From Capsulimonas corticalis (GTDB lineage: Bacteria; Armatimonadota; Armatimonadia; Armatimonadales; Capsulimonadaceae): a stretch of DNA of 64,000 nt. Of this stretch, positions 4,405 to 60,408 are shown piece by piece. Below the pieces are notes generated by a model. That model was not told the origin of the DNA. It ran no database searches and was given only the letters and a program-made list of their open reading frames with translations. The position numbers and the translations under genes were made by a program. Where the stretch lies: NCBI RefSeq assembly GCF_003574315.2, contig NZ_AP025739.1:682001-746000 (forward strand). The letters run 5' to 3'. Each line of letters starts with the position of its first letter. The stretch's first letter is position 1.

Positions 4405-6189
4405 ATGTTAAGAAAGCCAGTCGCTCTTCTCGCCGCCGCGAGCCTGCTGTCCGTCGCCCTCTCCACGGCGCCGGCCAATGCGCAGACCGCCGCGAGCAGC
4501 CAGTCGCTCGATCCGCACGCGAACGAAACCAAGGCGCAGCGGGATGCGCGCATGAAGTGGTGGCGCGAAGCCCGGTTCGGCATGTTCATCCACTGGGGCC
4601 TCTATGCGGAGCTCGGCGGCGTTTACAAGGACAAATCGACGGACGGCGCCGGCGAATGGATGATGCACGATCTCCAGATCCCTGTGGCTGACTACGCAAG
4701 CTACGCCAAGCAGTTCGACCCGGAGCAGTTCAACGCCGACAAGTGGGTGAGCTACGCCAAAGCCGCCGGCATGAAGTATATCGTCATGACCGCCAAGCAC
4801 CACGAAGGCTTCGCGATGTATCCCACGAAGGTGGACGACTTCAACATCAACGCGCGGACCCCGTTTCATCGCGACCCGATCGGCGAGATGGCCGCCGCCT
4901 GCAAAAAGGCGGGAATCAAATTCGGCGTCTACTACTCGCAGAATCTGGATTGGCATCATCCGGGCGGTGGCACGGCCGGCTCGTCCTGGGACCCGGCGCA
5001 GAAGGGTGATTTCGACCAGTATTTCATGAAGGTCACCGTCCCGCAAGTCCAGGAGCTCGTCACGAGCTACCATCCCTCGGTCATCTGGTGGGACATTCCC
5101 GGCGACCTCACGCCCGATGAGACCCGCGCCATCACCGCCGCGTTCTCCTCGGACCCTGCTTTGATCTACAACAACCGCATGGGCGGCGGAATTCCCGGCG
5201 ACACCGAAACGCCCGAGCAGCGAATTCCCCCCAAAGGATTCCCGGGCCGCGACTGGGAAACGTGCATGACGATCAACAACACCTGGGGTTTCAAAGTCCA
5301 CGACACGGATTTCAAGTCCACCGAGACGCTGCTGCGCAACCTGATCGATATCGCCTCCAAGGGCGGCAACTACCTGCTCAATGTCGGCCCCGACTCCCAC
5401 GGCGTCATCCCCGCGCCGGAAGTGGAGCGGATTACGGCGATGGGCTCCTGGCTGAAGCATAACGGCGAGAGCATCTACGCCACCAGCGCCAGCCCCTATA
5501 AGAAGCTGGCGTTCGACGGCCGCGCCACGGTCAAGGGCGACAAGCTCTATCTGAATGTCTTTGCCTGGCCGGATTCGGGCTTGACGCTCACCGGCCTGCA
5601 AACCGGCGTCAAGGGAGCCAGAGCGCTGGCGTCCGGCGAAAAGCTTGCCGTGACCAAGGCCGCCGATGGAACGCTGACCATCGCCAAGCCCGGCAAGATC
5701 GATCCCATCTCCACCGCGATCGTCCTCAAACTCGCCGGACCGCCCGTCGTCACCGAAGCCGAAGTGCTGACCGCGCCGCAGGCCGATGGGAGCTACGCCC
5801 TGACCGCATCCGATTCCACCACCATCGGCGGCGTTCAAGTCGAGCACGACGGCGACAACGCCAATCTCGGTTACTGGATCAACGCCCCCGACGCAGCGCA
5901 GTGGCGGATTCACGTTCCAGCGGGCGCAGAGGGATCATACACCGCAAAGCTGAACTACTCCTGCGAACCAGGCAACGAAGGCAGCACAGTCGCCGTCCAG
6001 GTAGATGGCGTCGATTCCGCCATCACGGGGACGATCCCCAAGACGGCGTCATGGGACGATTATCAAACGCTGCCTCTGACCGGAACCCTGACCCTGACGC
6101 CGGGAGCGCATACGATCACGATTCTGCCCAAGATCAAGCCGGGCTACGCCGTGATGAATCTGCGGCGGATTACGCTGGCGAAGGAGTAA
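4405..6189 (+). CDS. Secreted GH29 alpha-L-fucosidase
   Basis: The 594-residue protein begins with a Sec signal peptide (cleavage expected after APANA, near residue 27). Its catalytic domain carries family 29 landmarks: RFGMFIHWGLY, MKYIVMTAKHHEGFAMY, KFGVYYSQNLDWHHP, and the nucleophile motif WWD with Asp near residue 230. It continues through ETCMTINNTWGF and NLIDIASKGGNYLLNVGPD. A beta-sandwich tail follows, ending in a second carbohydrate-binding-like module (GDNANLGYWI ... GAHTITILPKIKPGYAVMNLRRI). The family hydrolyses terminal alpha-L-fucose with retention of configuration. The substrate could be plant, algal or host glycans; I cannot tell which. A paralogue follows directly. Residues about 371-451 are encoded by DNA almost identical to the equivalent part of that paralogue. 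Confidence 0.95.
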   Translation: MLRKPVALLAAASLLSVALSTAPANAQTAASSQSLDPHANETKAQRDARMKWWREARFGMFIHWGLYAELGGVYKDKSTDGAGEWMMHDLQIPVADYASYAKQFDPEQFNADKWVSYAKAAGMKYIVMTAKHHEGFAMYPTKVDDFNINARTPFHRDPIGEMAAACKKAGIKFGVYYSQNLDWHHPGGGTAGSSWDPAQKGDFDQYFMKVTVPQVQELVTSYHPSVIWWDIPGDLTPDETRAITAAFSSDPALIYNNRMGGGIPGDTETPEQRIPPKGFPGRDWETCMTINNTWGFKVHDTDFKSTETLLRNLIDIASKGGNYLLNVGPDSHGVIPAPEVERITAMGSWLKHNGESIYATSASPYKKLAFDGRATVKGDKLYLNVFAWPDSGLTLTGLQTGVKGARALASGEKLAVTKAADGTLTIAKPGKIDPISTAIVLKLAGPPVVTEAEVLTAPQADGSYALTASDSTTIGGVQVEHDGDNANLGYWINAPDAAQWRIHVPAGAEGSYTAKLNYSCEPGNEGSTVAVQVDGVDSAITGTIPKTASWDDYQTLPLTGTLTLTPGAHTITILPKIKPGYAVMNLRRITLAKE

Positions 6190-6218
6190 GCATTCGGGCA
6201 GCCTCGCTTGGCCGACCC

Positions 6219-6464
6219 TGCCGTGGCAAACCCACCCTGGCCTTCGCCCTTGCAAACCTACCCCTGGTGCTTCGGCCCCGGCAAACCCACCCCGGCCCTT
6301 CGGGCCACCCCTCCCGCCGACGGGAAGGGTTTGTAGGAGACGCTCTTACGAAGGCCGATTGCGATAACACGCTCTGAAATAACCCTTCCCGTCGGCGGGA
6401 GGGGTCGGCCGAAGGCCGGGGGTGGGTTTGCAAGGGCGAAGGCCAGGGTGGGTTTGCCGCGGCA
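6219..6464. repeat. Nested long inverted repeat between the GH29 paralogues
   Basis: The outer arms 6219-6258 and 6425-6464 are complementary at 39 of 40 positions. Inner arms 6307-6331 and 6381-6405 are complementary at all 25 positions and enclose about 50 bases. Short direct motifs (GGCAAACCCACCC) recur within the left half. No open frame fits the element. It could form a very stable RNA hairpin that ends or buffers transcription between the two genes, or it could be a small non-autonomous palindromic mobile element. Confidence 0.85.
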
Positions 6465-6489
6465 GATCAAAACGATATAAGAACCAACC

Positions 6490-8303
6490 ATGAAACCAAC
6501 ACACATCGCCATTCTCACACTCGCGGGCCTGATGTCCACCGCGCTAACGGGCGCCCGCGCCGAGGCGCCCGCCGCCGCCGCGTCGCCCGTCGTCGAAGAT
6601 CCGCATGCGCATGAGACGAAGGCGCAGCGGGACGCGCGCATGAAGTGGTGGCGCGAGGCCCGGTTCGGTATGTTTGTCCACTGGGGGCTGTACGCCGTGC
6701 CGGGAGGGTTCTGGAACGGCAAACCCGTCGGAGGCCGCGCGGTCAATACGCAAGGCTACGGCGAGTGGATCATGCATAACGCCGAGATCCCCGTGGCGGA
6801 CTACGCGAAGCTCGCGCCGCAGTTCAATCCGACGCAGTTCGACGCCGACGCGTGGGCGCAGGCGGCGAAAGACGCCGGGATGAAGTATCTCGTCTTCACC
6901 GCCAAGCATCACGACGGCTTCGCGATGTTCCATAGCAAAGTGGACGAATTCAATATCTTTGACGGGACGCCGTTCCATCGCGATCCGGTCGCCGAGCTTG
7001 CCGCCGCCTGCCGCAAAAAGGGGATCAAGTTCGGACTGTACTACTCGCAGTCGCAGGACTGGAGTCATCCGGGGGGCGCGGCGTGGGACGGGCACTGGGA
7101 CAAGGCGCAGGACGGCGATTATGACGCGTATCTGCGCAATGTCGCGGTCCCGCAGGTCAAGGAGCTTCTGACCAAATACGGCCCGATCTCCGTCTTCTGG
7201 TTCGACACCGACACGGATATGACGCCAGAGCGGGCCGCGCCGTTTGTCGAATCGCTCAAACTCCAGCCGAATATCATTTACAACAACCGATTGGGCGGCG
7301 GCTTTTCGGGAGACACCGAAACGCCGGAGCAGCACGTTCCCGCGACGGGATTCAAAGACCGGGACTGGGAATCGTGCATGACGATCAACACCACCTGGGG
7401 TTATCGCTCGGACGACTTCAACTTCAAGTCCACGGAAGAGCTAACGCACAACCTGATCGACATCGCCTCCAAGGGGGGCAACTACCTGCTCAATGTCGGC
7501 CCCGACGCCCAGGGAGTTATCCCCGCGCCGGAAGTTGAGCGCCTCAAGCAAATGGGCGCCTGGCTAAAGACAAATGGAGAAAGCATTTACGGCGCGCAGG
7601 CGAGCCCTTCAAGCGCCTGGCGTTCGATGGCCGCGCCACGGTCAAGGGCGACAAGCTCTATCTGAATGTCTTCGCCTGGCCGGATTCGGGCTTGACGCTC
7701 ACCGGACTGCAAACCGGCGTCAAGGGCGCCAGAGCGCTGGCGTCCGGCGAAAAGCTTGCCGTGACCAAGGCCGCCGATGGAACGCTGACCATCGCCAAGC
7801 CCGGCAAGATCGATCCCATCTCCACCGCGATCGTCCTCAATCTCGCCGGACCGCCCGTCGTCACTGAAGCGACAACCGTGGCGGCGCCGAGCGCCGACGG
7901 GTCTTACCTCCTGGGAGCCCCGAGCGCCATTTTGGTCGGCGACACGATCGCGCTGCAAGGCTCCGGCGACGACGCGAACCTCGGCTACTGGACCGAGGGC
8001 GACGACGCCGCCGAGTGGAAGCTCTCCGTCCCTCCCGCCGCCGCCGGATCGTACACGGCCAAACTCGAATACTCGTGCGAGCCGGGGACGGAAGGCTCTA
8101 CCTATGCGATCCGGATCGACGGCGCCGACACGGGGATCACGATGACGGTGGCGGCGACGGCCGGCTGGTCGGATTATAAGATCGTTACCCTGCCCGGAAC
8201 GCTCGCGCTCACGCCGGGCGCACATACCATTCGCGTCGCGCCAACGGCCAAGCCGGGCTTCGCCGTCATGAATCTGAAACGAATCACGCTGACCAAATCG
8301 TAG
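6490..8303 (+). pseudogene. GH29 alpha-L-fucosidase interrupted by a -1 frameshift
   Basis: The first part has a signal peptide and all family 29 landmarks, including RFGMFVHWGLY, KYLVFTAKHHDGF, the WFD nucleophile motif and NLIDIASKGGNYLLNVGPD. Near 7606-7611 the frame is lost. The text reads AGCCCTTCAAGCGC where one more base would give Ser-Pro-Phe-Lys-Arg and rejoin the tail seen in the upstream paralogue. The original frame then stops at 7665. The other frame stays open to 8303 and encodes the same C-terminal sandwich and binding-like module. The frameshift lies about 20 bases before a 241-base tract (7629-7869) that differs from 5518-5758 at only five positions. The N-terminal fragment keeps the whole catalytic domain and might still be active. 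A sequencing or assembly error is the main alternative. Confidence 0.85.
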
Positions 8304-8463: not shown

Positions 8464-8584
8464 ATATGGTCATAAGTTTCATTGATGAGTCAAAGACGTC
8501 TCTCAAATCCCTGGATCGACACTCGCAACGGAACGTCCGCCATGTTTCGCGCCCGGACAGTGTTTATAATAAAAGGAGTCTTTG

Positions 8585-9358
8585 ATGCATAAGAGGGTTG
8601 GTTTCACGTTAATCGAATTACTCGTTGTTATCGCTATCATCGCGATTCTCGCCGCCATCTTGTTCCCTGTCTTCGCCAAGGCCCGCGAGAAGGCCCGGCA
8701 GACGTCCTGTTTGAGCAATACCAAGCAAATCCTGCTGGGCGTTACTCAGTACAACCAGGACTCGGACGAACAGTTTCCGCCGCTCTACTCGGATACGGGC
8801 GCTGGAACTAATATCGCCTGGTATCAATCGATCTATCCCTACATCAAGAGCACCGGCGTTTATCTCTGTCCCGATGACAGCAACACCAATGTCGGCGCGC
8901 CGGGCTGGATCAACGACACGCAGTATCCCGTGACGCATTGCAGCTACATCGCCACCGTTCGTGTCGGCCTCGGCAACAACGACCCGCACATCTCGCTCGC
9001 GCAGCTGCAATCCCCCGCCTCCACGGTCTTTATGACCGACGGCGCCGTTCAGGCGACTGCGACCGCCCCGTATGTGACGGTGTCCTCCACGAAGAAACCG
9101 AAGGCATGGATCCTGGAGGATCCGGTCAAGGACGGCAGCTTCACTCCCGGCCCCTCGCTCGTCACCGGGACCAGCGACGACTGGGGAGCGCCCGATATCC
9201 GTCACACCGACGGCAGCGTCGTCGCGTTCTTCGACGGCCACTCGAAATGGATGCGCCCGTCCGCATGGTACTACGGCAACACCCCCTGGCTCGACCCTGA
9301 GTGCGGCGGCGGCGGAACCAGCGGCTCGAACAGCTACGGCGACAGCTGCAACCGATAA
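8585..9358 (+). CDS. DUF1559-type secreted pseudopilin 1
   Basis: The 257-residue product starts MHKRVG followed by the class III prepilin signal: Gly at -1, then [20 protein letters not shown], a hydrophobic helix that prepilin peptidase would process after Gly. The [11 protein letters not shown] segment and the repeated Asn-Gln-Asp region are typical of DUF1559 proteins. The C-terminal FFDGHSKWM matches the family's H-x9-DG-type end. I chose ATG 8585 because AGGAG at 8574-8578 suits it; a TTG one codon earlier is possible. These proteins are assumed to be surface pseudopilins of a type II/IV-like system, with cargo unknown. The next gene is a GntR/LacI regulator in the same transcription unit. 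The product is very similar to the one at 10880. Confidence 0.92.
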
Positions 9359-9483
9359 TCGGCGCGCGGCGGAACACCGCGCCGCGCACGACTCCGACGC
9401 CGATGTCCCGTGCTTTTCATGCCGGGCGTCGGCGCTCCCATTTTCTTTCGATCCGGACACGGATTTCGCCATGAGGACAATCC

Positions 9484-10707
9484 ATGTTTGCTGAGCGCCA
9501 TTCCTTGTCTGCGGCTCCCGATCCTCGGCCCGCTCCCTCCACGTCCGCCCGACAGGTGCTGCGCGTGCTGGAGGAGCGGATCGCGCAGAAGGTCTACCCG
9601 AGCGGCGGCCGGCTGCCGACGGAGCGCGAGTTGGTGCGTGAGCTGGGGACCAACCGCGCGGCGGTGCGCCACGCCCTCACGACGCTCGCGGACAGCGGGC
9701 GCATTGTCCGGCGCGCCGGATGCCGTCCGCAGGTCGCTCCCACCACGGCGGCCCGCGCCACGGCGCGGCGCTTCACTTCCGCCAATCAGCCGCAGACCAT
9801 CGGGATCGTCCTGCCCCAGCACGAAGGCGACTACGCCTCGCGGGAGATCATGCGCGGCATCAGCCGAGTCCTGCGCTCCCAGGAGACGCCCTGCCGGCAG
9901 CTGATCTTCGACCTCACGCAATCGACCACCTCTCCCGAAGCGCTGGAGATCCAGGCGTGCGACGCCGTGGAGCAGGAAGACGTCGCCGGCGCGATCGTCT
10001 GGCCCACCCTTTCCCCCGAATCGCTCGCCCGCTGGCGCCGCTTGCAGCGGCTGGGGCATCCCGTGGTGTTCGTCGACCGCTGCGATCCCGAGATTCCCTG
10101 CGACTTCGTCGGCATCGACAACTACACCGCCGCCCGCGATATCGTCGAATACCTGATTGCGCGCGGGCACACCCGAATCGTTCACCTGACCGACTCCGAA
10201 CCGGTCTCCGCAGTGCGCCAGCGCCAGGAGGGTTACCGGGACGCGCTCCGTTACGCCGGGCTCGCATCGATGGAGCGCCTCTGGTCGCTGCCGCATGTGC
10301 ATTGCGACGATTTGAGCGCGAGGCTGGATCAAGATCTGCGGAGCGGCGCGCTTCCAACCGCCGTGTTCGCGCTCAACGACTTCTCCGCATCGCTGCTGAT
10401 CCAGCACCTGGAAGATCGGGGGATCTCTGTCCCGGACCAGGTCAGCGTGATCGGCTTCGACGATTCGGACTGCTACGCCTCCAGCGGCGGCGTCATGACC
10501 ACCATGCGCCAGCCCTTCGAGCGCATCGGACAATGGGCGGCGGAGCTGTTCCTCCAGCGCCTCAAATCGCCCGATCCGGCCGGACGCCCCTTCCAGCACG
10601 TCCTGCTCCCCACCCGCCTGATCGAGCGCTCCACCTGCCGAACGCTTGGCGCGCCAGCAGCGGAGCATACGCGCGAACCCAATATTTACCGGGGATACTT
10701 GCTGTAA
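9484..10707 (+). CDS. GntR/LacI chimeric transcriptional regulator 1
   Basis: The 407-residue protein has an N-terminal GntR-type winged helix at about residues 20-90 (LRVLEERIAQ, GGRLPTERELVRELGTNRAAVRHAL). The rest is a LacI/GalR periplasmic-binding-protein fold (IGIVLPQHEGDYASREIMRGI, PVVFVDRCDPEIPCDFVGIDN, VSVIGFDDSD, TTMRQPFERIG). AraR of Bacillus is the classic example of this architecture, which usually senses a sugar. A GC-rich stem-loop (about 9363-9388) lies between this gene and the upstream pseudopilin, and no separate promoter is seen, so it is probably co-transcribed. Its paralogue at 11730 shares long identical stretches in the effector domain, for example the identical DYASREIMRGISRVLRSQE. 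Confidence 0.93.
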   Translation: MFAERHSLSAAPDPRPAPSTSARQVLRVLEERIAQKVYPSGGRLPTERELVRELGTNRAAVRHALTTLADSGRIVRRAGCRPQVAPTTAARATARRFTSANQPQTIGIVLPQHEGDYASREIMRGISRVLRSQETPCRQLIFDLTQSTTSPEALEIQACDAVEQEDVAGAIVWPTLSPESLARWRRLQRLGHPVVFVDRCDPEIPCDFVGIDNYTAARDIVEYLIARGHTRIVHLTDSEPVSAVRQRQEGYRDALRYAGLASMERLWSLPHVHCDDLSARLDQDLRSGALPTAVFALNDFSASLLIQHLEDRGISVPDQVSVIGFDDSDCYASSGGVMTTMRQPFERIGQWAAELFLQRLKSPDPAGRPFQHVLLPTRLIERSTCRTLGAPAAEHTREPNIYRGYLL

Positions 10708-10745
10708 TCACGCTGAAAATGACCAAAAACTAACCAGGAAGGAGA

Positions 10746-10795
10746 TTGACATCACTCATAAGCTTTGGTATAATGGCGGTGTCATTTGGTCAAAT
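10746..10795 (+). promoter_or_regulatory. Perfect sigma-70 promoter with TTTGGT repeats, pseudopilin 2
   Basis: TTGACA at 10746-10751, 17 bases, TATAAT at 10769-10774: both hexamers are consensus. CTTTGGTATA (10763-10772) overlaps the -10. A 12-base palindrome ATTTGGTCAAAT lies at 10784-10795, 21 bases after the first TTTGGT. TGACCAAA occurs upstream around 10719, in reverse orientation. This is a strong promoter likely to be repressed by binding over the -10 and start region. Confidence 0.85.
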
Positions 10796-10879
10796 CGTCT
10801 CCGATGACGGACCGCGCCGCCGCTCTCCTCATTCGATCTACTTTGCGTTGACTGCGTGTTTTGTATAAAGGAATAACAG

Positions 10880-11659
10880 ATGAAAACAAACCGTGGATTT
10901 ACCTTGATCGAGTTATTAGTAGTAATCGCTATCATTGCGATACTGGCGGCGATTTTGTTCCCCGTCTTCGCCAAGGCGCGCGAGAAGGCGCGCCAGACTT
11001 CCTGCGCCAGCAACGAAAAGCAGATCATGCTCGCGCTGCTTCAGTACAACCAGGATTACGACGAAACATTCCCGCCCCTCTACACGGATGTCAGCGGCGA
11101 TTGGAACGGCCCGATGGTGGCCTGGTATCAGAACATCTACCCGTACGTCAAAAGCGTCGGCGTCTTCTACTGCCCCGATGACCCCAACACGGGTGTCGGC
11201 GCGCCGGATTGGATCACCTACACGGGAGTCCCCGTGCTCCACAGCAGCTACATCGCCAACGTGCAGACGGGCCTGGGCATCTACGACCCTCATATCAGCC
11301 TGCCGGCGGTGGTCGCGCCCGCCTCCACGGTCTATATTACCGATGGAGGAGTGCAGGGATCGGCGACAGCCCCGTTCGTCACCGTCTCCTCGACGCCAAA
11401 ACCAAAGGCGTGGATCCTGGAAGATCCGATCAAGGATAACCTTTTCCCCAGCGGTCCCGGCAATGTCAGCTCCAGTAACTCGGACTGGGCCGCGCCGGCC
11501 GTGCGCCACACCGACGGCTCCAATGTCGGCTTCTTCGACGGTCATGTGAAGTGGATGCGCCCGGCGGCCTGGTACTACGGCAATACGCCCTGGCTCGATC
11601 CCGAGTGCGGCGGGAACGGCAGCGGTAAAAACAGCGCGGGCGACAACTGCAACCGATAG
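10880..11659 (+). CDS. DUF1559-type secreted pseudopilin 2
   Basis: The 259-residue protein begins MKTNRG then [20 protein letters not shown], the prepilin peptidase site and membrane helix. Its body closely follows pseudopilin 1: [16 protein letters not shown], the [20 protein letters not shown] region, [14 protein letters not shown], and a C-terminal [21 protein letters not shown]. The C-termini of both copies end in the same N-R dipeptide after a CNR. An AAAGGAA ribosome binding site lies just before the ATG. The gene stands between the two regulators and is driven by its own near-perfect promoter. The tight similarity of copies 1 and 2 suggests that the pilin-regulator unit was duplicated. 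Confidence 0.92.
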
Positions 11660-11667
11660 CGCGCGAT

Positions 11668-11723
11668 TGGTAAAGTCCAGCGATCTTTGGTATACTGATC
11701 TCAGTGATTCCGTCACTTTTGGA
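11668..11723 (+). promoter_or_regulatory. Promoter of regulator 2 with TTTGG repeats
   Basis: TTGGTA at 11668-11673, 17 bases, TATACT at 11691-11696. TTTGG (11686-11690) abuts the -10 as in the two pseudopilin promoters, and TTTGGA recurs at 11718-11723, 32 bases later. The position rules out the early TTG start at 11667 and points to ATG 11730, about 27 bases after the expected transcription start. Confidence 0.7.
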
Positions 11724-11729
11724 CAATCT

Positions 11730-12896
11730 ATGCTCACAGAACGCCGCCCGAACCCCGCCGCAACCAAAGAACGCCGTGGGCTGTCCGCCACCGCCCTTCA
11801 CGTGCTGAAGGTTCTGGAGGAGCGGATCGCCCAGGGCGCTTACCAGGCGGGGGATTGGCTCCCGACGGAGCGGGATTTAGTGCAGGAGCTGGGCGTCAAC
11901 CGCGCGGCCGTGCGCGACGCCCTGACGGCGCTCGCGGACGGCGGGCGGATTACCCGCCTCGCCGGCTGCCGGCCGCGCGTCGCTCCGGAGGATGGCGGCC
12001 GGCGGGAAAGCCAAAAGACGTCGCCTTCGCATCCGTACACCATCGCCATCGTGCTGCCCCAGCATGACGGCGATTACGCTTCACGCGAGATCATGCGCGG
12101 CATCAGCCGAGTCCTGCGCTCCCAGGAGACGCCCTGCCGTCTCCTGGTTCTGGACATCAACCTCGCCACCACGCTTCCCGAACAACTGGAGCTCGAAGCC
12201 TGCGCCGCCGTGGAAAATGAGAATGTCGCCGGAGCGATCGTCTGGCCGACCCTGACCGCGGAAACATCCGCCGGCTGGCGGCGGCTTCAGCGCATGGGGC
12301 ATCCCGTGGTGTTCGTCGACCGCTGCGATCCCGAGGCTCCCTGCGACTTCGTCGGCATCGACAACTACACCGCCGCCCGCGAAGCCGTCGAGCACTTGAT
12401 CGCGCTCGGTCACAAGCGCATCGCCCACCTGACCGACACCGAGCCGGTCTCCGCCGTGCGCCAGCGCCAGGCGGGGTACCGGGACGCGCTGCTGGACGCC
12501 GGGCTGTCCTCCATGGAGCGGATGTGGATGCTGCCTCATCTGATCTCCGATGACGCCGCTCCCGAGCTCGACCGATGCCTGGACAGCGACACGCTGCCGA
12601 CGGCCATCTTCGCCCTCAACGACTTTTCGGCAAGCCTCGTCATCCGCCATCTTGAGTCACGCGGTGTCCGCGTTCCCGAGCAGATCAGCGTCATCGGCTT
12701 CGACGACAGCGAACGTTATTCCGCCCGTCCGGGGGTGCTCACCACCATGCGCCAGCCCTTCGAGCGCATCGGCCAACGCGCCGCCGAACTCTTCCTTCAG
12801 CGCCTCACCTCCGCCGATCCGGCGGCGCGCCCCTTCCAGCACGTCCTGCTCCCCACGCGCCTGATCGAACGCTCCACTTGCCGCCCCCTGGAATAA
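11730..12896 (+). CDS. GntR/LacI chimeric transcriptional regulator 2
   Basis: The 388-residue paralogue of the regulator at 9484 has a winged helix at about residues 17-80 (LKVLEERIAQ, DWLPTERDLVQELGVNRAAVRDAL) and a LacI-type effector domain (IAIVLPQHDGDYASREIMRGI, PVVFVDRCDPEAPCDFVGIDN, ISVIGFDDSE). A frame-compatible TTG lies 63 bases upstream but falls inside the promoter, and the ATG at 11730 aligns with the start of the first regulator. Its own promoter carries the TTTGG signature also found at both pseudopilin promoters, so autoregulation and cross-regulation with regulator 1 are likely. The ligand is unknown. Nearby fucosidases make a sugar plausible but do not prove it. Confidence 0.92.
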   Translation: MLTERRPNPAATKERRGLSATALHVLKVLEERIAQGAYQAGDWLPTERDLVQELGVNRAAVRDALTALADGGRITRLAGCRPRVAPEDGGRRESQKTSPSHPYTIAIVLPQHDGDYASREIMRGISRVLRSQETPCRLLVLDINLATTLPEQLELEACAAVENENVAGAIVWPTLTAETSAGWRRLQRMGHPVVFVDRCDPEAPCDFVGIDNYTAAREAVEHLIALGHKRIAHLTDTEPVSAVRQRQAGYRDALLDAGLSSMERMWMLPHLISDDAAPELDRCLDSDTLPTAIFALNDFSASLVIRHLESRGVRVPEQISVIGFDDSERYSARPGVLTTMRQPFERIGQRAAELFLQRLTSADPAARPFQHVLLPTRLIERSTCRPLE

Positions 12897-13025
12897 TCAC
12901 GCTCTCTTCACTTCCATCCTCGTATTGTTCACAGCTAAACGCCTCCCTGGTCTCTGCCAATACTCAGAGTAGCAGGCAATTTTTACGTTGAAGAATACGA
13001 AAGACTGAGAAGTTAAGAGGTTCCC

Positions 13026-13871
13026 ATGTCGCCAGTCCGTTACCGAAACATCGAGAAAGTTCGCGCGTTTACGCTGATCGAGCTTCTCGTCGTGATCGCT
13101 ATCATCGCGGTGCTCGCCGCGATTCTGTTCCCCGCCTTCGCCAAGGTCCGTGAGAAGGCCCGGCAGACATCGTGCGCTTCCAACCTGAAGCAGCTGGGCC
13201 TCGCGTTTATGCAGTACACGCAGGACAACGACGAAACGCTGCCCTCCGACAGCCAGCACTACGGACAGGGCTGGGCCGGCAAAATGTATCCCTACGTCAA
13301 AAGCACGGGCGTCTACGGCTGCCCGGACGATCCCACGCAGCCCACCGCCGGCGTGTTTAAGCTGTCCTACGCCCTGAACGCGGCGTACGTCGGCGGGATC
13401 AGCTACTACTATCCGCAAATCACCACGGACTACAACAACACCGTCGTTCAGCGCAGCCCCGCCAATACCGTTCTGCTGTTCGAGATCCAGGGCAACACCT
13501 ATGGCCCGACCCATCTGGTCGGCGTGCCCGTCAACGACCCCGCCGAGCAAAGCAGCGGATCGGGCCTGGGCAGCAACGCCGGCGCCTGCGGTCTTTCCCC
13601 AACCACGAACTGGTGCTACGGAAAGTACGCCACCGGCGACATCAGCGCCAACGGGCTAGCCCCGGTCGGCAAGAAGGGCGTCCACAACGACGGCGCCAAC
13701 TACCTGGCGTGCGACGGCCATGTGAAGTGGCTGAGGCCCGAGAAAGTCTCCGGCGGAGCCCCGGCGGTCAATGAGACCGACGCCGCCGCGCCCAGCACCT
13801 CCAGCAACACCGCCGTCGCGGCCGGCACCGGCAACATGGGCGGCTACGCAATGACGTTCAGCCCGATCTAG
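13026..13871 (+). CDS. DUF1559-type secreted pseudopilin 3
   Basis: The 281-residue protein has a longer leader ([14 protein letters not shown]) before [20 protein letters not shown]. The residue before the cleavage site is Ala where the other three copies have Gly, which prepilin peptidases accept less well. The body contains [32 protein letters not shown] and a C-terminal GHVKWLRPE. The middle differs from copies 1 and 2, so this is an older paralogue. An AGAGG ribosome binding site precedes the ATG at 13016-13020. No promoter with the TTTGG signature is seen in the 129 bases upstream. A strong terminator follows. Confidence 0.9.
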
Positions 13872-48284: not shown

Positions 48285-50609
48285 TTACGCGAAGCGCAGC
48301 TTCGGCCGTCCGGGGATCGCTGCGGCCGGCGCTTCCGGCTCGGCGTCAAGCGTGAAGCGGGAGACGCTTTCCTGGAGCGTCTCGGCGATCCGGGCCAGTT
48401 CGCCCGACGCCGCCACAAGCTCTTCCACGGCCTGTCCCTGCTGCTCGGTCGTGGACGTAACGGTCTGGATGGACGCGGAGACTTCCTCGGCGGACGCCGA
48501 CATCTCCTCGGCCGCCGCGCTGTTCTGATCCACCGCCGACGCCACCGAAGAAATCGCCTCCGAGACCTCCACGGAGGTGATTCGCATCTCGGTTGCGGCT
48601 TCCCGGATCTGCTTGGCGCGGAACGTCACCGATTCTACCACCTTCTGGATCTCGCCCAGCGCCGCGCCGGCCTGCTCGGCCTGCGCCGCGCCGTTCTCCA
48701 CATCGCGCCGCCCCGCGTCCATCGACGTGATCGCTTCCTGTGTGCGGCTCTGCACTTCTTCGATCAGCGCGCCGATCTCGCGGGTCGCCGCGCCGGAGCG
48801 CTCGGCCAGCTTGCGCACTTCGTCGGCCACGACCGCAAAGCCGCGTCCCGATTCTCCGGCCCGCGCCGCTTCGATCGCCGCGTTGAGCGCCAGCAGGTTC
48901 GTCTGCGCCGCGATCGCGTCGATCGTCTCGACAATCCCGCCGATCCGCTGCGAGGCGTCGCCCAGGCTCTCCATGATCTGGGCCGACTGGCTGACCGTGC
49001 GATGGATATTCTCCATGCCTCGGACGGTTTCGGCGACCGTGTTCACGCCCTGGACGGCGACATGGCTCGCGCTCGCCGCTTCGGCGGCGGCAAGCGTCGC
49101 GTCTTCCGCGACCAGGTCTACGCTCTGCGCCAGTTTGCGCATCAGGCCCATGCTGTCCGCGACGGAATTGGCCTGCACGGAGTTGCTGTGCGCTACGTCG
49201 CCGGCGCCGCGCGCCGACTGCTCGGACGCCGTGGCGACCTCGCGCATCGTCTGCGTGATCTCCTCGGTCGAGTAACCGACGTTTCGCGCCGTTCCCGCCA
49301 GCTGCGCCGCCGAGCTGGTGACCGTTGAGGCGCTCGCGCCGACTTCGCCGATCAAACGGCGCAGGTTTGTCCCCATATCCTGAAAGGCGCAGCCAAGCGC
49401 GTCCCGGTCCGACTGCGGCTGCGTGGTCTGCCGCAGGTCGCCGGCCGCGATCCGCTCCGCCGCCTGCGCCATGGATTTCTGATAGGCGATCAGCGAGCGG
49501 AACGCATCGGCGATCCGCCCAACTTCGTCGTCGCTGTGGACATCGATCTGCTGATCGACCTCACCCTTGGCGAGCGCTTCCGCCGCCGTCGCCATCGGCG
49601 CGAGCGCGCGGCCCAGCCCATTCGCGATCATCCAGACAAGACCGAGCATCATCGCCAGCGCCACGCCGCTGATGACCAGCGCCTGATTGCGCAGCGCGAT
49701 GCTGGGCGCCAGAATGGCGTCCTGCGAGACGTTCATCACCACGCGCCAACCGGTGAACGGCGCCGTGGCCCAGTAGACTCGGCGCCATTCGCCTTTGATC
49801 TGAAGCTCCTGCATGCCATGGTCATCCCCCGAAACGACCTTGCCGTCCGGCAGCGATTTGGCGGGGACGCCGGCGAAGCCCTTGCGCAGCAGCAGATCCG
49901 CGTTCGGATGGGTAATGAGCAGTCCGCCCCGGCTCACGAGATAGCCGTACTCCTGCGACTGATTGCCGGAATCGAGAACGTGGACGCCGCTCATGATCGT
50001 GCGCAGCTCATCTAGCCCAAGGTCCACGCCGACGATGGCGAGAAGCGTGTGGTTGGCGTCGTAGATCGGCCGCGTATAGCTGACCATGGAGATGTTGCCG
50101 CCGCCGTCATCGAAGTACGGCTCGCAAACGTAGGGCGCGCCGGTTTTCTTGGGGCCGTTGTACCACTCCTGGGAGGCGTCATGATAATCGTAATCGGGCT
50201 TGAGGATCGTCGGCCAGCTCTTGCGCGTCACGAGCTGGTTCGACAGCTTCGCCTTGTAGTTGAGCTGGTCATACGCGATATAGAAGTCGAAGGCGTCGCT
50301 TTCCGGCGCTTCGCGCAGCAGCTTCACCAGATACGGTCCCACGGCGCCGTCCGGAACCACGCCGTCGCCCTGCTGGCGCGCGGCCACCGCGTCCACGCGC
50401 GCGCCGCAGCGCTGGACATAGGTGTCCAGGCGCTGCGCGGTCGATGTCAGCAGGCTCAGCGCCTTGGCGTCGGCCTGCTGCTCCAGCAGATGGCGGCTCG
50501 CATTGTAACTGAACCAGGACGTCGCGATCAACACCGCGCCGGTCGCAAGTCCCACGGCGAGACAAAGCTTTTGCGCGATGGTGCGCAGTTTTGGTATGGG
50601 AAAGGGCAT
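48285..50609 (-). CDS. Methyl-accepting chemotaxis protein 1 (dCACHE-HAMP-MCP)
   Basis: The 774-residue receptor has an N-terminal membrane helix ([20 protein letters not shown]), a periplasmic double-CACHE ligand domain of about 280 residues, a second helix ([23 protein letters not shown]) and HAMP ([31 protein letters not shown]). The signalling coiled coil carries the tip [31 protein letters not shown]. The ligand pocket shows YHDASQEWY followed by [12 protein letters not shown], close to the amino-acid-binding dCACHE motif except that Gln replaces Arg. AGGAG precedes ATG 50609. No chemotaxis kinase or flagellar gene is in the window, so the output could be pilus-based motility. A near-twin lies immediately upstream. 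Confidence 0.94.
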
Positions 50610-50732
50610 GGGAATTACGCTCCTGCAAAATGTCAAAATTACGAAGACGACGCCGCTGTCGCCCTCACCACTCTTCATTGTCGGAAGCAGCCGCGAGAAA
50701 CTTCAGGCGTCCGCCCCCTTGCCGACGAAAGC

Positions 50733-50771
50733 GGCCCCGGCTGCGCGAAGCGCGGCCGGGGCCGGAGGGAT
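50733..50771 (-). terminator. Probable terminator/processing hairpin between the chemoreceptors
   Basis: GGCCCCGG (50733-50740) pairs with CCGGGGCC (50756-50763), extended inward by a GCGC-GAA-GCGC tip. The T run after it on the minus strand is weak (GCTTTC). Confidence 0.5.
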
Positions 50772-50788
50772 CGAAAAATCGCGCGGCG

Positions 50789-53104
50789 TTACGCCGCGCG
50801 CAGATGCTCGTGGCGAGGCGCGGCGCTTGCGCCGTCGTCCGACAGCGCAAACCGCGAAACGCTGTCCTGCAAAATCTCGGCGATCCGCGCCAGCTCGCCG
50901 GACGCCGTCACCAGATCTTCGACCGCGCCGCTCTGCTGCTCGGTCGTGGACGCCACGGTCTGAATGGACGCGGAAACTTCCTCGGCGGACGCCGACATCT
51001 CCTCGGCCGCCGCGCTGTTCTGATCCACCGCCGACGCCACCGAAGAGATCGCCTGCGAGACTTCCTGAGACGTGCCGCGCATCTGCGCCGCCGCCTCGCG
51101 GATCTGCTGGGCGCGGGCCGTTACGGACGCCACGACCGTCTGGATCTCGCCCAGGGTCTTGCCGGCCTTCTCCGCCTGCAACGCCCCGCTCTCGACATCC
51201 CGCCGCCCGGCGTCCATGGAGTCGACGGCTTCTCGTGTCCGTGTCTGCACTTCCGCGATCAGCGCGCCGATCTCGCGGGTCGCCGCGCCGGAGCGCTCGG
51301 CCAGCTTGCGCACTTCGTCGGCCACGACCGCAAAGCCGCGTCCCGATTCTCCGGCCCGCGCCGCTTCGATCGCCGCGTTGAGCGCCAGCAGGTTCGTCTG
51401 CGCCGCGATCGCATCGATCGTCTCGACAATCCCGCCGATCCGCTGCGAGGCGTCGCCCAGGCTCTGCATGATCTCCGCCGAATGGCTCACCGTCTGATGG
51501 ATCCGCTGCATGCCCTGCACCGTCTCACTCACCGTGCGGACGCCTTCCTGCGCCACATCGCCCGCGCTCGCCGCTTCCGCGGCCGCCTGATTCGCATCGG
51601 CGGCGACGGATTCGACGCTCTCGGACAGCTTGTGCATTAAATGCATGCCTTCCGCGACCGAGTTCGCCTGCACGGAGTTGCTCTGGGCCACATCGCCGGC
51701 GCCGCGCGCCGACTGCTCGGACGCCGTGGCGACCTCGCGCATCGTCTGCATGATCTCCTCGGTGGACAGGCCGACGTTTCGCGCGGTTCCCGCCAGATGC
51801 GCCGCCGAGCTGGTGACGGTCGAAGCGCTCGCGCTCACCTCGCCGATCAGCTGGCGCAGGTTCGTTCCCATCTCCCGGAACGCGCATCCCAGCGCGTCCC
51901 GCTCCGACTGCGGCTGCACGATCTGCCGCAAGTCTCCCGAGGCGATCTGCGCCGCCGCCTGCGCCATCGATTTCTGATAGGCGATCAGGGAGCGGAAGGA
52001 AGTGGCGATCCGGCCGACTTCATCATCACTCTCAAAGTCAATCGTCTGATCCACCTCGCCCTTGGCGAGCGCTTCCGCCGCCGTCGCCATCGGCGCGAGC
52101 GAACGGCCGACGCGGGACGCGATGATCCAGACAAGAAGCAGCATCAGGGCCGTCGCGGTGGCGCTGATCGCCAGCGCCTGGTTGCGCAGCGCGATGCTGG
52201 GGGCCATTACGGCGTCCTGGGAGACGTTCATCACGACGCGCCATCCGGAGAAGGGCGCGGTCGCCCAGTAAACGCGCCGCCATTCGCCCTTGATCTTAAC
52301 CGCCTGCTCGCCATGGGCGTCACTCGAAACAACCTTGCCGTCCGGCAGCGAATTGACTGGGGCGCCGGCGAAGCCTTTGCGCAGCAGCAGGTCCGTGTTG
52401 GGATGCGTGATCACCAGTCCCCCACGGCTAACGAGATAGGCGTACTCCTGGGAGCGATAGGCGTTGTCCAGTACGTGAACGCCGCCCATGATCGCGGTCA
52501 GCTCTTCGAGCGACAGGTCGACGCCCGCGATCGCCACCAAATCATGGTTGGCGTCGTAGACCGGCTGCGTGTAGCTGACCATCGAGATATTGGCGCCGCC
52601 GTCGTCGAAGTACGGCTCGGTCACATAGGGCTTGCCGGCGTCTTTCGCGCCCTTGTACCATTCCTGGGACGGGTCGTGATAGTCGTAGGTCACCTGATCC
52701 AGATTCGGCCAGCTCTTGCGAGTCACCCAGGGCATCGAAAGCGTGTCCTTGGCTTTCATCTTCTCGTAAGCGATGTAAAAGTCGTACGCTTCATTCTCCG
52801 GGGTGTGCTTCAGCAGAGACGCGAGGTAGGGAATCATCGTCCGATTGGCCCGGCTTCCGGAGACTTCCTGACGCGCCACGATAGCGTCTGTACGCGCGCC
52901 GCATGACTGGAGGTAGGTATCCAGCCGCTGGGCCGTGGATTCGAGCATCCCCAGCGCTTTGGCGTCGGCCTGCTGCTCCAGCAGATGTCGGCTCGCATTG
53001 TAGCTAAACCAGGACGTCGCGATCAAAACGACTCCTGTCGCAAGCCCTACCGCAAGGCAGAGCTTCTGCGCGATCGTGCGCAGTTTAAAGGTTGGAATGG
53101 CCAT
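50789..53104 (-). CDS. Methyl-accepting chemotaxis protein 2 (dCACHE-HAMP-MCP)
   Basis: The 771-residue paralogue of chemoreceptor 1 has the same layout: leader helix, dCACHE ([37 protein letters not shown]), second helix ([23 protein letters not shown]), HAMP ([18 protein letters not shown]) and MCP hairpin tip [36 protein letters not shown] precedes ATG 53104. The ligand domain differs from copy 1 at many positions while the tip is encoded by nearly identical DNA, so the two receptors probably sense related but different ligands and share one signalling array. The C-terminus has no CheR-docking pentapeptide that I can recognise. Confidence 0.94.
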
Positions 53105-53260
53105 GGTGAACGGGTGCTCCTGCTCGGCGAAAAATGTCGAAGCTGTGACTTTTGCCAGCTTCCCGCCGCTATTATCGGCAGAATTCCCCGCGCGCTGGAG
53201 ACCGTTTCGGCGCTATTTTCCAGTATAGTTAAGAGGATCGAAGTGGAGGAAATGAGTTCC

Positions 53261-59652: not shown

Positions 59653-60408
59653 TTACTTTCCAGCGCCGCCAGCTCCCGCAGATCCCGCGCCGCCGGCGCT
59701 TCCCGCTCCGGAAACTCCGCCGCCGACACTTGAGCCGCCGCCGCCTTCCGAAGCGCCCGCTGCTCCGAAGCCGCTGGTGGCTGCGCCGGGGGACGACATG
59801 CTGGACGTTCCGGAAGCCGCTACGGGGTTCGACATGGTCGAGCCAGGCGCGGCGGTCGAGCCGGGCGTGGCCGCCGCGCCCGAACTGTTTGTGCTCGGGC
59901 CGGCCGGCGATCCCGGCGTATTTGCGCTGGATGCGCCGGGCGTGGCCGCGTTCATGTTGTTGGATGTGGACGAACTGGATGTATTTGGGCCGCTCGGCGA
60001 TGCCGAGGACGAATTGGGGCCGTTTGTTCCGGCGGAATTCATCGTCGAGCTGGCTCCCGGCCCAGATGGCGCGGAGCCGCCGGGAGCCGTGCTGGCTCCC
60101 GATCCGGTCGCCGTGGAGATTCCGCCGGGGGCCTGCGAGTATCCGCCGCCGGCGGGAGCGGAGGCGCCGCCCGGGAGACTGCCCGAAGAAGAGACGGCGC
60201 CGCCGCCTCCTCCATCGGGCGAGGCCGGCTGCGCGACGTTGACATTCGCGGTGCTGGGGGCGTTGGGCTTCTCCGACGCCTCCACCGCCCAGGAGATGAG
60301 CGCGATGGCGATTACCGCCGCCGCCACCCAGGTCCACATCTGCTTGCGTCCCATTCCCGGACGCGCGCCCGGCGCGTCCGCGACATTGTTCACGTTGTTG
60401 CTTGCCAT
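59653..60408 (-). CDS. Single-pass membrane protein with long Ser/Gly/Ala/Pro tail
   Basis: The 251-residue protein has a short cytoplasmic start (MASNNVNNVADAPGARPGMG), a membrane helix (MWTWVAAAVIAIALISWAV) and a low-complexity exterior tail of about 200 residues, made mostly of Ser, Gly, Ala, Pro, Asn and Thr (NTPGSPAGPSTNSSGAAATPG and similar). GAGGGAG before the ATG supports the minus strand; the plus-strand frame across it is Pro/Glu-rich and less plausible. The tail is probably disordered and could be glycosylated or span the envelope. No conserved domain is seen. Confidence 0.78.
   Translation of the reverse strand: MASNNVNNVADAPGARPGMGRKQMWTWVAAAVIAIALISWAVEASEKPNAPSTANVNVAQPASPDGGGGGAVSSSGSLPGGASAPAGGGYSQAPGGISTATGSGASTAPGGSAPSGPGASSTMNSAGTNGPNSSSASPSGPNTSSSSTSNNMNAATPGASSANTPGSPAGPSTNSSGAAATPGSTAAPGSTMSNPVAASGTSSMSSPGAATSGFGAAGASEGGGGSSVGGGVSGAGSAGGAGSAGAGGAGK

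Follow-up and report, generated by a model that had tools for sequence, protein, structure and literature searches.

How did two tandem genes that are otherwise well diverged come to share a short, nearly identical tract, and does the base missing next to this tract in the second gene go back to the same event? These questions were raised by an initial annotation of a locus in Capsulimonas corticalis, whose genome (NZ_AP025739.1) is one contig of 7.645 Mb. The window, i.e., the whole stretch of DNA that was analyzed, covers positions 682001-746000 of this genome (64,000 nucleotides). Our results suggest, with a probability of about 0.93, that a tract of about 254 bp in the second gene was recently converted from the first gene after the species split and that the neighboring base loss most likely occurred separately and later.

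The Two Tandem Genes and Their Relatives

The two genes, referred to as g1 and g2, are tandem GH29 alpha-L-fucosidase genes with CBM6, which are in direct orientation and about 2.1 kb apart. The following features were identified.

4405-6189, + strand: g1, intact ORF of 594 aa, GH29 followed by CBM6; likely tract donor
6212-6475, no strand: imperfect palindromic intergenic repeat between g1 and g2, with inverted repeats; member of a dispersed family
6490-8303: g2 as a whole, including its out-of-frame part
6490-7665, + strand: truncated ORF of g2, 391 aa, GH29 complete (PF01120, 8e-95), followed by a short out-of-frame tail
7608-8303, + strand: remainder of g2, out of frame, with the putatively converted domain and CBM6 (PF03422, 4.2e-08); its own frame is open and constrained

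In g1, the Pfam domains PF01120 (9.1e-89) and PF03422 (9.5e-09) were found at residues 36-355 and 468-591, respectively. The PF01120 scores of the two genes were 298.7 and 318.6 bits, compared with a curated cut-off of 25.2. By profile match, g1 and g2 belong to the GH29 alpha-L-fucosidase family, and hydrolysis of alpha-L-fucosides is their predicted activity. The palindromic repeat between them is about 260 bp long; 40 places, scored out of 174 candidates genome-wide, were about 79-91% identical. One copy is located between two other GH29 paralogs (C1:1285238-1285430), which are part of a second tandem GH29 cluster of three genes in the same genome (L058, G000:C1:1284038-1289093). At the start of the window, positions 60-615 contain five copies of a 76-nt unit with a spacing of 120 bases, which are 63-71% alike and possibly code for a repeat protein on the reverse strand.

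The comparison of g2 with an ortholog rests on one genome, the draft genome of a same-genus relative (G001). Its g2 ortholog is intact with 602 codons, and the protein identity was 88% over residues 1-371 of g2. The ortholog is followed by prepilin-like and GntR/LacI-like genes, the same kinds that are found downstream of g2 in the window, and a sequence that looks similar to the palindromic repeat is just upstream of it. No g1 ortholog was found in this draft, which is 69% complete. A match on its contig C624 was rejected as a g1 ortholog, as it covers the beginning of a different GH29 gene next to a transporter. Four genomes of the same family (G002-G005) each contributed one closest copy, of which that of G002 is the sister of g1. 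A separate related-locus search of genome contigs identified no relative. Downstream of g2, at 8572-13871, prepilin-like and GntR/LacI-like genes alternate in a block of which two to three repeats are present, with identities of 62-80%, and no recent conversion tract was seen in this block.

Extent and Edges of the Near-Identical Tract

The 241-base segments 5518-5758 and 7629-7869, which had first drawn attention to the locus, differed at exactly five positions as described (5562, 5595, 5616, 5730, and 5754 in g1 coordinates). The maximal block was slightly longer.

5506-5759, + strand: tract copy in g1, on the putative donor side, 254 bp with six differences to g2
7617-7870, + strand: putatively converted tract in g2, with edges at 7616/7617 and 7870/7871

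Outside the block, g1 and g2 were 62-78% identical. Their codon-aligned identities were 70.0% at 4510-5250, 77.5% at 5251-5502, 96.5% at 5503-5757 and 62.0% from 5758 onward. The flanks had been described as far more diverged, at roughly 70% before the tract and unrelated right after it. The first part of this description agrees with the identities of 0.700 and 0.775; the second does not, as the sequences after the tract are homologous CBM6 regions with an identity of 0.620. By permutation, the highest-scoring segment (218) was well above the maximum of 53 among 2000 shuffles. A search for a third high-identity copy of the block in the genome identified none. The tract codes for residues ~368-452 of g1, which are between the barrel and CBM6.

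A Different Ancestry of the Tract in g2

Comparison with the ortholog separates the tract from the rest of g2. The identities between g2 and its ortholog in G001 were 85-87% before the tract and 70.6% within it, and those between g1 and g2 were 70-78% and 96.5%, respectively. Along the gene, dS between g1 and g2 was 0.89, 0.64, 0.08 and 1.27, so that it was low in the tract only (0.08 vs. 0.64-1.27). Moreover, segment trees were incongruent. Both flanks of g2 grouped with the ortholog, with a support of 100 in the N-terminal part and 100 in CBM6, whereas in the tract g2 joined g1, not G001 (support 98), and the pair was placed beside G002 at 69-79%. These comparisons show that the tract of g2 has an ancestry other than that of the rest of the gene and that its replacement was recent. 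Thus, the initial proposal that a tract with such sharp edges arose by gene conversion or a template switch is strongly supported by the ortholog comparison, the synonymous distances and the trees.

Could the two copies have stayed alike through slow evolution, by selection on the protein or the DNA? In the tract, dS between g2 and its ortholog was 1.46, with 64% of the synonymous sites differing; the tract therefore diverged normally between the two species, which means that the region was free to change and excludes slow evolution. Identity of g2 to its own ortholog in the tract is only the 70.6% given above, and other species differ likewise, so that this explanation is practically untenable. 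Judged by the dS ratio, the age of the conversion would be roughly one tenth of that of the split from G001, or less.

Proposed Route and Direction of the Conversion

The starting state would be two old tandem paralogs in direct orientation about 2.1 kb apart. Once the species had separated from its same-genus relative, a stretch of about 254 bp in g2 was most probably overwritten by the matching part of g1. We infer that the molecular route was homologous recombination without crossover, i.e., gene conversion or an equivalent switch of template followed by a return: the flanks of g2 on either side group with the ortholog (100%), and g1, g2 and the spacer have all been retained, with neither crossover nor deletion.

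The direction was most likely from g1 to g2, as judged from trees with moderate support. In the tract, the pair is placed beside the copy of G002, which the N-terminal tree likewise recovers as the sister of g1; therefore, g1 would be the donor and g2 the recipient. A conversion from g2 to g1 is unlikely, given that the tract tree joins the pair to G002 (69-79%) rather than to G001 and that dN between the tract and G001 was 0.184, which is large for an orthologous stretch when compared with 0.05 in the N-terminal part. Two observations fit the opposite direction. The identity of the tract to G001 was slightly higher for g2 than for g1 (0.706 vs. 0.690), and at site 5730/7841, one of the six differences, the codon of g2 at 7839 is AAT, which is also the codon of G001. 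At this site, a short remnant of the former g2 sequence may persist within a tract that came from g1, or the site may reflect the opposite direction.

The Frameshift in g2

The second gene had also been described as lacking one base about 20 bases before the tract. The missing base is confirmed in the assembly, 21 bp before the 241-base segment and 9 bp before the maximal block.

7605-7607, + strand: frameshift site, a C run that is one base short relative to g1 and the intact orthologs

At 7603-7610, g2 reads AGC-CC-TTC, whereas g1 and the related genes in five other genomes have a full middle codon. This assignment is based on the alignment with the G001 ortholog and a codon table of seven genes, and a coding-frame scan independently flagged the frameshift. 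The truncation of the C-terminal module was as described: g2 stops at 391 aa with GH29 complete and CBM6 lost. The base loss would remove the domain encoded by the tract as well as CBM6 from the product of g2 and leave the catalytic barrel. The sequence flanking the missing base is of the g2 type, as it matches G001 and not g1; thus, the base was lost outside the converted tract.

It is a substantial possibility, although short of probable, that the assembly or the base calling is at fault here and that the organism carries an intact g2. A single base in a C run is a common kind of sequencing error, and the part beyond the frameshift is still constrained. The run is, however, merely three bases long, and the coding-frame scan, whose sensitivity was 48.5% for simulated one-base deletions, found nine frameshift candidates in 2.06 Mb. 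With so few candidates, of which at least one is likely to be spurious, the assembly is not full of such errors, and they are uncommon here. The window contains one other candidate, near 60123, which is in a Ser/Gly-rich low-complexity gene and was set aside as a likely false alarm.

It is very improbable that g2 is recoded in a programmed manner, with ribosomes shifting frame near 7605 so that the full protein is made. The downstream frame is open and constrained, as such recoding would need, but the G001 ortholog requires no shift. The local sequence, GCG AGC CCT TCA, is without the usual slippery heptamer, and a run of three Cs is too short for transcriptional slippage; both count against recoding.

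One Event or Two

The initial annotation further suggested that one failed recombination event produced the tract and the frameshift at once. What speaks for this claim is the nearness of the two alone, and it is not supported by the bias toward synonymous differences or by the constrained CBM6 part. In such an event, at the left edge of the tract, either strand exchange or repair synthesis would have copied g1 into g2 and dropped a base at the junction, perhaps aided by a hairpin. The missing base is 9 bp from the tract edge, and the density of frameshifts is low elsewhere; from nine candidates in 2.06 Mb at about 48% detection, we estimate that such closeness would occur by chance, if the two were independent, in roughly 1 in 1000 per tract. 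A DNA hairpin is also predicted (-9.7 kcal/mol in a 40-nt window), of which the 3' arm reaches the start of the tract and the loop would contain the missing base. This hairpin is unexceptional, ranking 30 among 355 positions in the gene, and the bases beside the missing one are of the g2 type rather than the g1 type.

The substitutions also argue against a joint origin. Of the six differences in the tract, five are synonymous and one is not; had g2 lost its frame at the conversion, five or more synonymous differences would be expected with a chance of ~0.03-0.045, a value that rests on small numbers. In the CBM6 part, five amino-acid changes were assigned to the g2 lineage, compared with 23 on the lineage of the intact G001 ortholog, and dN/dS between g2 and G001 was 0.16. 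The respective numbers for the N-terminal part were 6 and 10. Changes in CBM6 are few on the g2 lineage, with no indication of relaxed constraint; thus, the C-terminal part was kept under selection until very recently. A single event is therefore doubtful, and the frameshift, if real, is probably younger than the conversion.

Other Tandem Pairs in the Genome

All paralogous ORF pairs in 2.06 Mb (27%) of the genome were surveyed. Tandem pairs were defined as those on the same strand and at most 10 kb apart, with an identity of 60-90% in their remaining sequence, and near-identical windows as 60 codons with at least 95% identity. Such windows were present in 8 of 39 tandem pairs, compared with none of 26 distant pairs in the same identity range (Fisher P 0.018), which is expected if proximity helps conversion. 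For the 60-80% class alone, the numbers were 4 of 35 and 0 of 26 (P 0.13); the other four of the eight tandem pairs were in the 80-90% class, where the contrast is weaker. In these near-identical windows, fourfold-degenerate sites were nearly unchanged (e.g., 0 of 40), compared with 21-56% differing outside. In addition, one tandem pair in a 400-kb sample of a genome from the same order (G007) had a window of 97.8% identity, compared with 58.9% around it. Conversion between tandem pairs as a genome-wide habit is suggested by these patterns. A habit of the whole lineage, in which short, domain-length conversions let tandem families such as glycosidases, chemoreceptors and others exchange domains, with edges prone to deletion, is a tentative idea that may well not hold.

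The analyzed stretch itself contains another tandem pair of this kind at 48285-53212, two chemoreceptor genes (MCP signal, Cache, HAMP) with an identity of 99% in one window and of 77% in the rest. Within that window, 0 of 40 fourfold sites were changed. This pair likely contains another conversion tract.

Relation to Known Systems

Domain-length conversion between diverged bacterial paralogs has been described for RF1-RF2 in Bacteroidia and Chloroflexi (PMC4530459). Similar to RF1-RF2, the converted stretch of g2 corresponds to about one protein domain, segment-wise trees were used, and the direction was judged from orthologs (PMC4530459). RF1-RF2 are essential genes with an ancient divergence, whereas the fucosidase genes are neighbors in tandem and their conversion occurred much more recently. 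It is also documented that gene pairs of prokaryotes, including tufA/tufB, evolve in concert through conversion (PMC6053082 and references therein). For tufA/tufB as for the fucosidase genes, interlocus conversion makes two copies alike within a species. The recurrent homogenization of tufA/tufB over very long times differs, however, from one 254-bp tract in otherwise diverged genes. The nearest solved chain, 9rzx_A (GH29), matched residues 38-456 of g1 at 2.5e-85. Similar to 9rzx_A, g1 consists of a barrel and a following domain, and the tract codes for this post-barrel stretch. Different from 9rzx_A, the assembled g2 ends shortly after the barrel, without the post-barrel stretch and CBM6.

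The fucosidase tract is thus a new and clear case of a known process and is ordinary in kind. Its value is that of a clean, datable conversion between diverged tandem paralogs, with an intact ortholog as control. It shows that conversion can give rise to domain swaps between tandem carbohydrate-active genes. Moreover, judging from the survey, patchworks appear to be common among the tandem pairs of this genome, so that single-gene trees of such families can mislead.
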